A DNA stretch of 64,000 nt from contig QEYB01001249.1 of the NCBI GenBank assembly GCA_017562135.1, positions 1-64,000 of the forward strand, read 5' to 3'. Of the stretch, positions 11,571-51,530 are shown one piece after another. How positions within the stretch are numbered: position 1 is the stretch's first letter; every line of letters starts with the position of its first letter. The notes under the pieces are model-generated. The model made no database searches and was not told the DNA's origin. It was given only the letters and a program-made list of their open reading frames with translations. A program made the translations under genes and the position numbers. This stretch comes from Dipylidium caninum. Taxonomy: Eukaryota > Platyhelminthes > Cestoda > Cyclophyllidea > Dipylidiidae.

Positions 11571-14500
11571 CTACTCTTCTACAGCTTCCTTGGGAGCATC
11601 GCCTTCACCCGCCGGCTTTAACTGGTCCCGGAAGTCTACCTTCTACAAGGGGGAAACACGGCAAAACAGCCATATTCGTATGAACGCGCAAAGCCTGTTG
11701 CGAATGTTCAAGAGGTCAATTTAAAGGAGACGTTGATGACGCACTCCTATTGGCTCCCCGTGATATCGATTTTTGCCGCTCCCCCTGAATTCGAACTTAA
11801 TTGGCCACATCATTCACCGAATTAAACAATATAAAATTGCGCACTTCAAAATGTGAAATGTTAGAACATAATCAGTAAAGTTAATGCAAAGGCGTACGTG
11901 GGAGGCTTCGTCTTTCTCTTCAAGGGCAAATTTATTTTGTCCCGTAGACTTCAGTTGGGTTCGGAAGGAAGCCAACGTCTTCTCTTTCTTCTCAATACGC
12001 GCCAACTGACTTTCGGTTTTGGACACCTTTTTGAGCACGGGTTTGACGCTATGTTGACGAAAAGTTGTAATTGATTTCAGCTAACACTTTGGGTAGAAGA
12101 GATTTAAACGAATAAGAGGGTGTACTCACAATTTGCCCTTGACATCGTTCACTTTCATGGTGAGTTCGTTGATCTCGATGTCTTGGCGTCGCAACTTCAT
12201 CTCCCAGTCGTATTTCTCACCTTCCAACTGAGCCATTCGTGCGTGCAGCTCTCGAACTTTCTTGGCAAGGGCGGCTTGAAACAAGGGAAAAGAAAAAGGA
12301 GAATCATTTTAGTGGACGGTAGAAATTACTTCTTATTTAGTAAAAACTCCGAGCAACCCACCATCATCGAGACCGTCCAACTGAAGAGGTTGAACCCTTG
12401 ATCGGAGGTAATTCTCCTTCTCCTCCTGCCTCTTCTTCATCTCCGCTTTCATTTCATCTGCCGCCTTTTGCATGATGAGTTGCTGAAAAGAAAGGAGAGC
12501 ATTCAGAGTAATTGACCCTAAAGTCACTAAAGGGACTACGTTGGTACCGCTGCCAACCCACCTTGAGCAACCTCTTCTTCTCCGGTGACAGACCTCCCAA
12601 ACCCTTGCGCTTCTGGCCGGGCTTGCGCTGCTTTTTTGCAGCCTCTTCAGCCTCCCGTTTAGCTTTCTCCTTGAAATCAAATGAATACTAGGTTTAACCT
12701 TCACAGAAAAGCCCTTCTCCAACTCTAAGACATGCTGTCTCGGGCGTAAGGAATATTCGTTTCGGTAGAGTAGAACACAAGACTGCCTACTCAAGTGTTC
12801 CTTGTAGCGCAAAGGGAAAGCAACGTTCGCTTTGAGTAGGTTACAATGCAGCCAAGAGATGTTGGTGCAGTTTTCATGCTTGAAGGTGCTGTCTTGATTT
12901 GAAAAGATGTAATTTTCGCATAATCTAAACTACCTCTTGTTTCCTTTGACGCTCGGCAGCAGCCTAGATTTCGCGGACAGCAAAAAAAGCAGACAAAACC
13001 GTGTCAGAGATGAATTCACTCCCTTCACTCGCATGCCATGCAAACTGTCGCAACTTTGGACGCATTTGGAGCATGCAACCATCCTTCTCAATACTACGAA
13101 CTTCACCGCCTTTTAAAGCCATGCCGAGGTGTCAATCGACAGGCCACTCATTTTGACTTCATCAGGGTTGTGCCGCAGATCTTGTGCTGAAACGTGGTGG
13201 AGGCGGGGCAAGGAGTCCTTCTGGACTCCTTTAGTGCTCAATATTAAGAAAGAGCGGTGTACTTGTGCACACAGCGTGTGTGTATGTGTGTGTGTGTGTG
13301 TGATCATTCCACTCAAAACGGGGTGCCTGGGACGAGAAAAAGAAACGAGGAACCATGCACGCATGCACCAACCTCTTCGCGCCTTGCCTCTTCCTCTCTC
13401 TTCCTACGCTCCTCCTAAAGTTCATTTTATGTCGTAAGGTGAAACATGACCCCAGACATGGATTTTTTTAGCATTTCCAGCACTCAAACTTACTTCTTCC
13501 TTATGCTTCTGGGTTTCATCCTGAAGGGAAATATCGGGAAAGAAGACAAGTGAGATCTGTTCCCCTCAACTAAACTGGAGAAGACATCAAAGTAGAACTC
13601 GTGCAACCCGGAGCAACAGAAAAGGGACGATCCAAACAATCACGCTAAGTGAACACTTAGGGGGGCCTCCAAAAGTGAGACGCCACATGCAATACACACA
13701 CGCACCCGGTCTATCTAACCCCGCAATCGTTTGAATCGTTCACGCGGGGATTATCTACCAATCTGACACTGGTTTGTCAGTTTGACTTGACAAGAGAACG
13801 GAAATTAACACGGACACTCTCATATCACAAAATGGCGAACCCGAGGCGCGGACACGTAACATTCACGCAATCGAAACGATTACATTTTTGCGCCATTGGA
13901 AACACAAAACGACATTTAAAACAAAAAAAGGACACTAGAAAAAATATCGTGTTTTACCTCCGATTCTGTCTAAAAGGAAGTACGAATGTAGTTTTATTAA
14001 GGCAATTTTCGTGTTCTCGTGGCAACAGGGAGCGGTAGGTATAACATGCTTGACATTAAGGGGCGTGCAGAATGCCACATATCCTGGCACACTGATGGCC
14101 AAGTTATTATTAAATTTGGCTTTCTGGGGGTCTAGGAACGCGGTCTTGAGCCTCGCCGCTTTCGATGCAGTCTTGTGACATAGACATTAACACGAAGAGA
14201 GAGCGACACGCATACGAGAGATAGAGAAAAGAGCAAGGGGAAGAAAAAGGCAAACACCAACGAATACTTGGCTACTTTGGCACACGTAAAAGGAAAATGG
14301 CGAGTGTAGCAGATGACCTTTACCTCAGAAACCTCCTCCTACACAAAATTATGAAAATACAGTCAACAGGATTAGTGTGGTTAAATATGCACAAGATTTG
14401 AATGTGTTTTTACGGGAAGCATGCACTGTACCATGCGGGTGGGGGATTTTTACCTCGGACTCCGAGGCCTGCGAGAGTTAATGAGAGTATAACAGTCTGT

Positions 14501-41170: not shown

Positions 41171-42537
41171 TCATCGAGCGGGTATCCGCGTCACCACGGA
41201 TTGTATTTCGATGGCACTGACAGACCGAAGGCGCTTCACCGGTGAGGCTTGTTGACTCACTAGAGGTGTCCCAAGAACAGGCATCGTGGGGGCTAGAAGC
41301 TTTCGGGTTGGATTGCTCTGAGTCCCGGGCCCCTTCTTTCGGGAGAGGCCACAACACATTTGCAGTATATGCTTAGCCTCCTCACGGAATAACTTTCCAA
41401 CAAGGCAGTAGAAAATCCAATTTGTACAGGAGTTGAGGAAACAGAGACTGCGAAATAGGTAGTAGTAGAATCGGTGGATGTCGGGATCGACCTCGACTCC
41501 GCTGAAATTGCGAAACATGAGGAAGGTGATGAGGGGGAATGTGCTACTCATGTAGGCGATATTCATGCAGATGAGGAGGCGAGTCACGTGGCCAAAGTTG
41601 TCTGGTGCATTGTGTCGACTGCTATTATGCTCGGTGGATTGGCGTTGGAGACGCAAAGGGGGATAAGTCGACACGAGATTCTACGAACTCCGAGTGGTGC
41701 AGATGATCCATAATACGTGTGGAAAGGGTGGACGTATCGATGGTGGACTTAGATCGTACGAAGGTCTGAGTTGAAGTAGATCTGCCACAAATTGGATTAA
41801 TGTCAGTAATGTCAAGTGCACTCGATCTGGAGAACTTTCGTACCCACTTTGAATTGGCCGCTTGACGTCGTTTAAATTTATTCCCCAATTTGGCCATGTT
41901 GAGACAGATGACTGCGGTGGACATGGTCATTCCCAGTAGGGGAATTATGCCCCAGATGATGAGGTCACAGAGAGTTGTCCAGGTAGAAGATATCGCGATC
42001 GGTGGGATCACAATCGCCTTCTATTACCTTCCAGTAGATGAGGTAGGGCGCAACCGGTGCCAGGAGGATGAAGGTGATCACACTCCACACGATAATGTGC
42101 TTCCGCGAGACGCCAGCCCGAGCTCGTGCATGAAGAGGCTTGAAGACGAGGTAGGCGCGCTGCACCGACAATGCGGACTGCATGTAGGCGGACCAGTAGA
42201 AGGCGTAATTGGAGGAGGCTTTGTGTAGCTTGCAGATCACATCATTCTGATCACGAATGTCAAATTTAAACCAGACTTTGAGGAGGATCCACAAGCCTTC
42301 CAGGGTGAGAATGAAGAAGTCGCCGATACAAATGCTGGAGAGCCAGAGGAGCATGTTATATTGAAATAGTTTTGAGCAAAAGAGGAAGAAGAGACTAAAG
42401 AGCGTTCCTAACACACCGATGATGATGGTGAGTGGAAGGTACCAGCGCAGGAAGTAGACACACAACTCCTCGTAGAGGTAAGCATAGGGCCGAGCGTTCG
42501 GAAGATCTGTTGTCACGATGATATCGCTGGTATTCAT
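41171..42537 (-). CDS. Rhodopsin-like G-protein-coupled receptor, two frame changes
   Basis: Seven membrane segments are visible across three frames. Frame 1 (42537-41965): N-terminus with an NTS glycosylation site, TM1 (LTIIIGVLGTLFSLFFLFC), TM2 (MLLWLSSICIGDFFILTLEG), TM3 after Cys in VICKLHK, SVQRAYLVFKP in place of DRY, and TM4 (VWSVITFILLAPVAPYLIYW). Frame 2 (to about 41640): TM5 (CDLIIWGIIPLLGMTMSTAV) and a long Ser/Thr-rich third loop. Frame 3 (to stop 41171): TM6 (HVTRLLICMNIAYMSSTFPL) and TM7 with NSCTNWIFY for NPxxY, then a basic tail. The first switch lies in TCTCTGTG at about 41970, with no usable intron; losing CT from a longer CT run would explain it. The second could be a 73-base GT-AG intron (about 41666 to 41594) or another indel. 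The Gln-Arg-Ala motif and divergent TM7 suggest a lineage-specific orphan receptor, perhaps for a peptide (inference). It may be a pseudogene. Confidence 0.82.
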
Positions 42538-43792
42538 GTCGAATTCGTCATGACTGTCTCCACAGGTTTGATAAGAGTAATCTGCTCTTCGTCAATCGCA
42601 GTCCCTTATTTGTCCGTGTGCTTGCAAGTCTGTCTGTCAGCCTTTCTTTATCTATGTGTGTGTTTGTGTTTGTATGTATGTGGTACAGTTATGCATTTGT
42701 GTTTACTGTCACCATGGCCATTTTAATTGGTCGAGCGCGGGACCAATTATCAGGAGCGCACAATTCATTTGGTCCAATCATAAGCCGGTGTGAAAGCTAA
42801 TTTGCAACTACTTTATCCACCCCTCGTGTATACATATAAATACCTACATTTACTACACGCAATAAATGCGAGTTAGGAGGGCGGAGAAGACGGAGTGATG
42901 TTTAGTAATATTGGTATAAATGTTAGTTAAAATGCATTCGGGCATGAGCTCCCCGAACGAGGATTGCAACCTAAATTTCACCTTTTCGACTATTATACTG
43001 TTCCATCCCAATAGGTTGCAGTTTGAGTTTGGACCGGAAGACAAATCGACCCTATTTTACCAACAAGGCCCTCGTAACCATGTTAAATGGTAATGCGAAA
43101 GAATACGGTTACGGCTGACCCTCAGCCTAAGCTTCCTGTTCTTAGGCATACTAATAGCGAACTTAGGGACCTTAATAGTAAAAAATATATATATAAAAGA
43201 ATAGTGAAGTTGATTCAGACCAAAACGGAAATGGAAGGAAAGAAAGAAGTAAATAAAATATAGAAGACAAAAGTTTCCAGAGTAACACGCAAAAACAAGG
43301 TTGCACTTCGGTGATCACAGCATTTAGCCCTGCACACACTCTTCTGTAGCAATAAGGGCTTTGACCACCCAAATGAGAGACGAGGGTGGAGAGGCTCGGA
43401 CATATAATCCCTTGCATATCAAGTGGGATGAGTAGTTAAGTGCTTTGTTGCCGGCTCTGTCAGTCGGGGATTAAGTGCATTCGCGTCCACAGAAAATCAC
43501 ACAACAGAGGAGCAGATGCCATTAGCAGCATATTATTTACGTGTTGGGGTTAATCGCAAAGCCGGAGGTAGAGTGATCGAAGCCATATTTTCCCATGGCC
43601 TTATGGAACAACATGTTCTCGAGGTGATGAGGTTGGTAGGGTTAACTGACATACATCTAAGAAGCTGTTTTATTTTCTGCAGCATACTACCATGACACTT
43701 CAACTCATCACAGCTGGGGTCTGACATTGCTGGAGAAGCGTTGGCTTTGTCGAAACGCTTAATTAAAAAAATGTTCCATATATACGGCATAT

Positions 43793-50064: not shown

Positions 50065-51530
50065 TCAACACGTCTGAGTGTCGGCGGAGTCTCTCGTAAC
50101 CTCCTCGTAATCCCTCACCAAGGAGGTCATATTCACCAAGGCCTCGTTGAACTCGTCTTCCTCCATGCCCTCACCCACATACCAATGCACAAAGGCGCGT
50201 TTCGAGTAGAGCATATAGTACTTATGCACTATCCGTTGCCAGGCCTGTCCAACTGCCGAATTGTTGGCCAACATAACGACATTCCTACTGGTCTGGCCGA
50301 TGCCACTGTCACAACGTGTGACCGGTGTTTCACTGGTGATGCTGACCTTGAAGCCGGTAGGACACCAGTCGACAAATTCTAGACCTCGACACGTCTTCAT
50401 CTCCGCCAAGGCGACGTACACCTGACCGGGGCTGACATTGCCGCGGTAGAGGAGGGTGCAGGACATGAATTTCCCATAGGTAGGATCAATCTTAATCAAC
50501 TGATTCTCGCGTTCAAACACGGCTCGTGTTATCTCAATCACATTGGAGGGCTCGTAGGCTGTCTTCTCGGTCGACTGGATGGGCGCAAAATTCGCCAGTG
50601 GGAAGTGGATGCGTGGATAGGGGATGAGATTGGTCTGCATCACGTTGAGGTCCGAGGTGAGGACATTCTTGAAGCGCAACGAAGCCGTCACTGCACTGCA
50701 GACAATGGCCGCGAGACGGTTGATTTTGGTGTATGTGGTGTAGCTGGAGGAGAGGAAACGCGAGCAGACATCGTACATAGCCTCATTGTCCATCAGCAGT
50801 CCGATGTTGAAGTCTTCCATGGTGAAGTGTTCGCCCAGCAGGCAATTGTAGGGCTCAATGAGGGCTGTGGAGAGGGACGGCGACGGGTAGATTGGAATCT
50901 CCACCTTCGTGTACTTTCTATAATCCCCGAGGACATCCAATAGGGCTGCAGTCAAACCGGCGCCTGTACCGCCACCGAGACTGCGGAAGAAGAGGATGCC
51001 CTGAAGGCTGTCGCATTGTTCAATGGTGCGTCGAACCTCGTTCAGTATGGGTGAGAGTAGCACCTTCCCAATTGTGAAGTATCCGCGAGCGAAGTTGTTG
51101 GACGCGTCCTCGTAGCCGGTGATCAACTTGTCGGGGTGGAACAGTTTGCGCCAGGGTCCGACTCGCACCTCATCTGTTAAGGGGAAGACGGTCATAAGTA
51201 CACGAAGGATGGAAAAGGCGACGGCGTCAGTCACACTTACCGACTACGGAGGACTCGAGATCTACAAAGAGGCATCGTGGCACGTAGCGACCCTGCTCGG
51301 AGATGTTAAAAAAGGTCTCCACCCACTCCAATTCATGCGGCTGCTCGAAGAGCGAACCCTCGTTGTTGACTGCGTGCTCGGCGCAGTAGAGCTCCCAGAC
51401 AGCATTTCCAATTTGTACTCCACACTGGCCAACGTGGATTGAGATGACCTCCCTCTACAACGCAAATGACACCTCAGGCGGCTGAAGGACGCGGAAGAGA
51501 GGGGGAAAGGGGGACGCAACCTCTTACCAT
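50065..51530 (-). CDS. Divergent alpha-tubulin, three exons, 441 residues
   Basis: Exons 51530-51528 (ATG alone), 51454-51241 and 51173-50065; introns of 73 and 67 bases, both GT-AG. An intron directly after the ATG is the classic metazoan alpha-tubulin position. It starts M|REVISIHVGQCGVQIG, has the tubulin GTP-binding signature GGGTGAG at 139-145, YPRIHFPLANFAP, and the near-invariant KRAFVHWYVGEGMEEDEF, so membership is certain. Oddities: the catalytic Glu that stimulates GTP hydrolysis on beta-tubulin (human E254, in LTEFQ) is Val (position 250, in LNVMQ). The Lys40 acetylation loop has no matching Lys. The tail is DYEEV then TRDSADTQTC, short, with no Glu cluster and no terminal Tyr, so polyglutamylation and detyrosination are not expected. 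It is probably a specialised isotype (sperm, tegument or cilia are guesses). The frame is intact, so it does not look like a pseudogene. Confidence 0.95.

Follow-up and report, generated by a model that had tools for sequence, protein, structure and literature searches.

An alpha-tubulin gene lacking the glutamate E254 in Dipylidium caninum and its relatives among flatworms

The window analyzed here is a stretch of 64,000 nucleotides (nt) from the tapeworm Dipylidium caninum (positions 1 to 64,000, forward strand, of contig QEYB01001249.1, assembly GCA_017562135.1). Its minus strand carries a complete alpha-tubulin-like gene whose product has Val at the residue equivalent to E254 of human alpha-tubulin, and Glu is missing from this site in every other member found of the flatworm clade to which the protein belongs. 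Taking the sequence comparisons together we lean, with some reserve, towards a conserved and specialised flatworm isotype, here called V254 alpha-tubulin, which would form un-hydrolysed, stable microtubules rich in guanosine triphosphate (GTP).

The window gene and its residue 254

The gene and its parts are as follows.
51530-50065, minus strand: alpha-tubulin-like gene, complete, with three exons and two small introns
51528..51530, minus strand: exon 1, the ATG alone, followed by a GTAAGA donor
51455..51527, minus strand: intron 1, 73 bases, GT..AG
51241..51454, minus strand: exon 2, residues 2-72 and the first base of codon 73, with the MREV start, the GQCG nucleotide motif and a shortened H1-S2 loop
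51308..51355, minus strand: the H1-S2 loop in its shortened form, SLFEQPHELEWVETFF, with Pro where the acetylation lysine K40 would stand and gaps at columns 41-43
51174..51240, minus strand: intron 2, 67 bases, GTAAGT..CAG
50065..51173, minus strand: exon 3, remaining GTPase domain, T7 loop/H8, C-terminal domain and stop codon TGA (50067-50065)
50956..50976, minus strand: tubulin signature GGGTGAG (phosphate-binding T4 loop), intact
50641..50643, minus strand: codon GTG, Val 250, aligned to human alpha-tubulin E254
50065..50118, minus strand: short C-terminal end, VRDYEEVTRDSADTQTC, without the acidic EEY tail

An earlier note on this DNA had given the coordinates, strand and length of the gene correctly for the spliced coding sequence, and its description of an intact 441-codon frame with clean introns is borne out: the joined exons make 1326 nt, coding for 441 residues and TGA with zero internal stops, and both introns are GT..AG. 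Intron 2 lies at human codon 76 in phase 1, a position common to 13 of the 17 other alpha-like models of the genome (106-Mb assembly, 920 contigs). Exon 3 matches the Pfam families Tubulin (100.1 bits, cut-off 33) and Tubulin_C (121 bits, cut-off 26.6). The protein is closer to alpha than to beta chains: each of the 60 best solved chains bears the name alpha or plain tubulin, and the spliced alignment of the window gene scores 1201 to alpha vs 755 to beta.

When the protein was aligned by phmmer (HMMER) to solved alpha-tubulins, its DLNVMQTNL fell on their DLTEFQTNL free of gaps, so that E254 becomes V (GTG) and F255 becomes M. The site is also gap-free in the spliced alignment and in MAFFT alignments, and a chance misalignment at 254 was ruled out by the agreement of the three. 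The Glu to Val replacement and the retained flanks RF, DL, QTNL and YPRIHFPL, both pointed out in the earlier note, are thus present as described. Further changes near the site had gone unmentioned (D245K, G246N, A247V, N249T, V250S, T253N and F255M). Alpha-tubulins carry the motif GxxNxDxxE around E254, and in the window protein this motif is degraded beyond residue 254 alone. D251 is present.

All nine positions that we take to be the non-exchangeable-site nucleotide residues of alpha-tubulin (Q11, D69, E71, D98, N101, T145, N206, Y224 and N228) are as in human in the window protein. The predicted fold of an orthologue, modelled from a 54-row alignment, is that of an ordinary tubulin, with a root-mean-square deviation of 1.1-1.5 A to the best 50 entries; a model from an 11-row alignment had a predicted local distance difference test score (pLDDT) of 36.0 and was set aside. 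The protein ends in SADTQTC. The Echinococcus granulosus model (P0001) has 35 additional C-terminal residues compared with the window gene (50065-50090), which ends after ADTQTC; this is either a gene-model artefact or a real difference. With D251 kept and V in place of E254, the product of the window gene is classed as a divergent, non-canonical isotype of alpha-tubulin.

The V254 clade and other tubulins without E254

Relatives were collected from a large protein collection by a homologue search (6074 matches among 7965 scored candidates, the best 120 listed, down to 528 bits) and a profile search (the best 120 of 7906 listed, down to 641 bits); the scored candidates were those sharing most words, names were shortened and cluster members hidden. 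The V254 clade consists of the window protein and at least 13 others, 10 of them from nine named flatworm species (Echinococcus, Hymenolepis, Schistocephalus with two proteins, Dibothriocephalus, Calicophoron, Fasciolopsis, Clonorchis, Paragonimus and the monogenean Protopolystoma) and three without a species name (P0087, P0094 and P0130). Site 254 is Val in 12 of the 14 rows and Thr in two, the Schistocephalus B and Dibothriocephalus copies, and in none is it Glu. The refutation foreseen in the earlier note, orthologues with Glu, is therefore absent from the 13 other members; conservation of Val as such holds for 12 of the 14 rows and fails in the Thr pair. The view of a functional rather than a dying gene passed this orthologue comparison, with Val or Thr across cestodes, trematodes and a monogenean. 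D251 is present and residues 253, 254 and 255 are non-acidic in all 14 rows. The K40 column has Lys in only one (P0087) of the 12 rows with a residue there, and no row ends in EY, the tails of P0087, P0094 and P0130 being longer.

Among 166 proteins retrieved, 144 fall outside the V254 group and the Q/D group described below, and 142 of 142 with a readable motif have Glu (two are unreadable); these controls are best hits and hence no random sample of alpha-tubulins. Four extra motif hits without Glu were second copies at points where proteins seem to have been joined wrongly, and every one of these proteins has a copy with Glu as well. In trees computed with site 254 removed, the 14 rows stand on one side of a branch with support 100/97 (37 rows) and 100/100 (40 rows). 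Within the clade, the 37-row tree groups the cestodes (97/93) and, weakly, the flukes with the monogenean (89/74). Since the clade spans cestodes, flukes and a monogenean, the gene is, judged by this tree, at least as old as their common ancestor. Identity to the window protein is 98% in E. granulosus, 86% in Hymenolepis, 68-70% in flukes and the monogenean, 62-66% in diphyllobothriids, 55-56% in P0087, P0094 and P0130, and 52.5% in human alpha-tubulin. That the protein stays open and collinear at such depth would imply purifying selection. There was no row named Schistosoma among the 120 matches listed from each of the two V254 searches. A Schistosoma orthologue of similar closeness to the other fluke proteins would be expected in these lists, so the gene is likely absent from Schistosoma. 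No free-living flatworm is named among the listed clade rows; P0087, P0094 and P0130 may be free-living flatworm proteins.

The window gene is not the only one in this genome to have lost E254. Spliced models gave 18 alpha-like genes, of which five are without E254: the window gene (V), two on contig C56 (Q and D), one on C515 (D) and one on C117 (N), the C515 and C117 models being rough. The earlier note had treated a single odd gene, a picture that does not survive these five models and a second conserved family, which also rule out the window gene as the sole case. On the 37-row tree site 254 must have switched between Glu and not-Glu at least three times, although the long branches call for caution.

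The second family is represented by two genes in opposite orientation, ~3.3 kb apart.
C56:346716-348340, minus strand: Q254 alpha-like gene (L033)
C56:351652-356663, plus strand: D254 alpha-like gene (L034), with Echinococcus counterpart P0137
Gln occupies site 254 in all nine Q254 rows, our own gene included, which come from cestodes, Opisthorchis, Fasciolopsis and one protein without a species name; position 251 is Ser or Thr in eight of these and Asp in Hymenolepis. Like the V254 type, the Q254/D254 family (the two C56 genes and P0136-P0144) is alpha-like and without E254, and its Q254 members are common to cestodes and trematodes. It differs in forming a separate clade, 36-40% identical to the V254 type, and in having S or T at position 251 in 10 of 11 rows, whereas the V254 type has D251.

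The canonical alpha-tubulins of the genome are eight models at L009, L010, L011, L012, L014 and L020, with 83-97% identity to human. They share the tubulin fold family and the nucleotide-site residues with the window gene, and four of the eight share the phase 1 intron at codon 76. In contrast to the window protein, which lacks all three, they have E254 (8 of 8), K40 (6 of 8) and an acidic tail.

Several other tubulin loci were observed. The C117 model (400811-402817, L029) is divergent and alpha-like; its residue 254 is Asn, the substitution made in the engineered human E254N, and its single in-frame stop probably stems from a wrongly called splice site. Near-identical divergent alpha-like genes with E254 lie at C523:18055-19637 and C832:230311-231933 (L026 and L027), possibly as haplotype copies. 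Five canonical alpha-tubulin genes and one beta-tubulin are clustered in ~62 kb at C41:105777-167303 (L011, L012 and L014). The beta-tubulin model at C828:503488-507182 (L035) is 62% identical to human TUBB, is changed at 3 of 14 listed nucleotide-site positions, and is a possible partner for a divergent alpha. Two beta models, at C739:11328-14534 (L021) and C909:14099-18119 (L028), have Q198 and F200 at benzimidazole-site positions; E198 is found in eight of nine other beta models covering that site, gamma and more distant tubulins excluded. Another tubulin of the genome is 94% identical to Echinococcus and 93% to Hydatigera. Elsewhere in the window, 12333-12929 (minus strand) is part of a troponin gene (Pfam 34.8 bits, cut-off 26.2) and 41965-42591 (minus strand) has a weak rhodopsin-type seven-transmembrane match (19.2 bits, under the Pfam cut-off of 30.5).

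Stable microtubules and alternative explanations

We propose that V254 alpha would pair with a beta-tubulin, and that such a dimer, on landing at a protofilament end, would offer from helix H8 a Val instead of the Glu that primes the water attacking GTP on the beta subunit below. The exchangeable site (E-site) of that beta would keep its GTP, each V254 subunit would add one GTP-like interface, and microtubules made partly or wholly of V254 dimers would have a larger share of GTP-like, expanded lattice and hence be stable. As a small share of the pool, V254 alpha could stabilise chosen microtubules without harm to mitosis. As the acetylation lysine and the EY tail are missing too, this stability would be built in, encoded by sequence and not written by modification enzymes. 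Parasitic flatworms may therefore make unusually stable microtubules naturally. The likeliest sites, and this is the weakest step of the proposal, would be long-lived arrays, for instance the microtubules of sperm or flame cells. In these worms such arrays occur in the axonemes and the cortical microtubules of sperm and in flame cells, among others.

It is a doubtful but more far-reaching idea that the two E254-less families (V254 at least from the ancestor of flukes, the monogenean and tapeworms onwards, Q254 at least from the one shared by flukes and tapeworms) were both kept for a permanent, GTP-locked, genetically encoded class of microtubules. Candidate structures for this class in trepaxonematan sperm are the unexplained helical tubular core of the 9+'1' axoneme or else the cortical microtubules. 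A single-cell study of Fasciola hepatica has several tubulins, not named, enriched in late male germ cells (PMC13400776); electron tomography of caryophyllidean tapeworm sperm revealed a pair of helical tubular structures inside the 9+'1' core, their composition not being stated (PMC6733933); and the Schistosoma sperm axoneme is described as exceptional, with a diffuse central element and without dynein arms (PMC10295390). The portions available of the two sperm-ultrastructure papers are silent on the tubulin composition of the 9+'1' core, and that of PMC6733933 is free of the word tubulin. The V254 gene is likewise unnamed in the portions of flatworm expression literature examined. The germ-cell tubulins, the 9+'1' core and the Schistosoma exception are leads for the site of action, not tests of it.

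Several observations weigh against stable V254 microtubules. Clade identity to human alpha-tubulin is only about 47-53%, and of 225 sites that are invariant in canonical alphas, 37 have been lost throughout the 14 rows; as E254 is one of these 37, its loss is not statistically singled out. The alternation of V and T could mean that the site is free. The window protein keeps 155 of the 225 invariant sites anyway, so that an intact nucleotide site argues only weakly for constraint: eight of its nine positions are canonical-invariant and all eight are kept, with a chance of ~0.05 on the 155/225 background. Within the clade N101 is Ser in three of 14 rows (P0087, P0094 and P0130) and Y224 is Phe in one. 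E254V is absent among the substitutions in the examined portions of the human-tubulin literature. According to work cited in PMC7018511, budding yeast does not survive E254A, which suggests by analogy that a V254 isotype could probably work only as a minor or tissue-limited component. Finally, the F. hepatica genome paper, as far as available, gives five alpha isotypes as the full complement, none evidently V254; either that count overlooked the type or it is not found there.

The 37 clade-wide losses also bear on an unlikely explanation, in which V254 alpha folds and binds nucleotide and is not part of the bulk lattice, serving instead to cap or nucleate microtubules, to sequester dimers or to form a non-microtubule filament, with loss of E254, K40 and tail as a release from lattice constraints. 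The changes include Y103F, Y108F, D396Y (Y in 11 of 14), R422L (13 of 14), D424N and E429V, several of which presumably lie in the outer helices used by motors and microtubule-associated proteins. This explanation fits less well with D251 kept in every row, with the close match of the predicted fold to solved tubulins, and with flukes still 68-70% like the tapeworm sequence. Invariant D251 is, in turn, expected if hydrolysis were only slowed or otherwise supplied (by D251, a partner beta-tubulin or a water network) and the microtubules stayed dynamic, and divergent beta-tubulins such as L035, with its three altered nucleotide-site positions, occur in the same genome. We regard this as rather improbable, since human tubulin carrying E254N or E254A alone fails to hydrolyse, and no acidic neighbour has moved into positions 253-255. 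There is slim probability that Val merely hitch-hiked on general fast divergence in a minor component with negligible effect on dynamics: the five E254-less models have four different residues, as expected if a freed isotype loses the site easily, and the clade-wide losses agree with this, but the site does not resemble one in free drift, as all 14 V-type rows have Val or Thr and all nine Q-type rows have Gln. A pseudogene, frameshift or assembly error, for which no support was found, is extremely improbable and was ruled out by the open frame, the GT-AG introns and the intron site shared with paralogues, and it is at odds with the nearly identical Echinococcus protein and Val in most rows.

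If the V254 type does form stable, GTP-rich microtubules, E254-less alphas kept over deep time in animals would be a natural experiment on microtubules without GTP hydrolysis. The V254 alphas might serve as a tubulin source for GTP-cap research, and they would be parasite-specific microtubule subunits.

Comparison with known E254-deficient tubulins

The literature claim of the earlier note on E254 mutants matches the human-tubulin papers. Hydrolysis is blocked in engineered human alphaE254A, N and Q and slowed in E254D (for the latter, PMC7018511), and the lattices are stable (PMC7018511, PMC8764682, PMC11893814); hydrolysis-deficient E254Q co-assembles with E254N into well-behaved mosaic microtubules (PMC11893814). 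The residue replaced is the same as in the V254 type, and Gln is the residue of the flatworm Q254 family. The human mutants differ in being single changes in a canonical alpha, whereas the flatworm protein is ~52% identical to human.

Among published flatworm tubulins, F. hepatica alpha isotypes 1-5 are 72-95% identical to one another; isotypes 4 and 5, like the window protein, are without Lys at 40, and the Glu-Tyr ending occurs in 1-4 only (PMC3820024). By these published identities alone, none of the five should be of the V254 type, as none fits a protein 52% identical to canonical alpha.

Among the best 10-20 papers listed by each search of the open-licence literature we found no report of E254 loss in flatworms or any animal lineage, and one published natural E254-less case, the coccidian alpha3-tubulin of Toxoplasma, Hammondia, Neospora, Besnoitia and Cystoisospora, which has lost D251 and E254 (PMC10056924). 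Its authors read it either as reduced GTPase activation with stable polymers or as a decaying gene (PMC10056924). An independent origin of the two types is assumed. Both are natural, lineage-conserved alpha isotypes without E254. Coccidian alpha3 has T at position 251, Q or H at 254, a tail of ~40 residues or more and an MPREI start (PMC10056924), whereas the V254 type keeps D251 and has V or T at 254, and the window protein has a short tail and starts with MREV; D251 and the short tail place it outside the coccidian type. By analogy, V254 alpha-tubulin may work like coccidian alpha3-tubulin.
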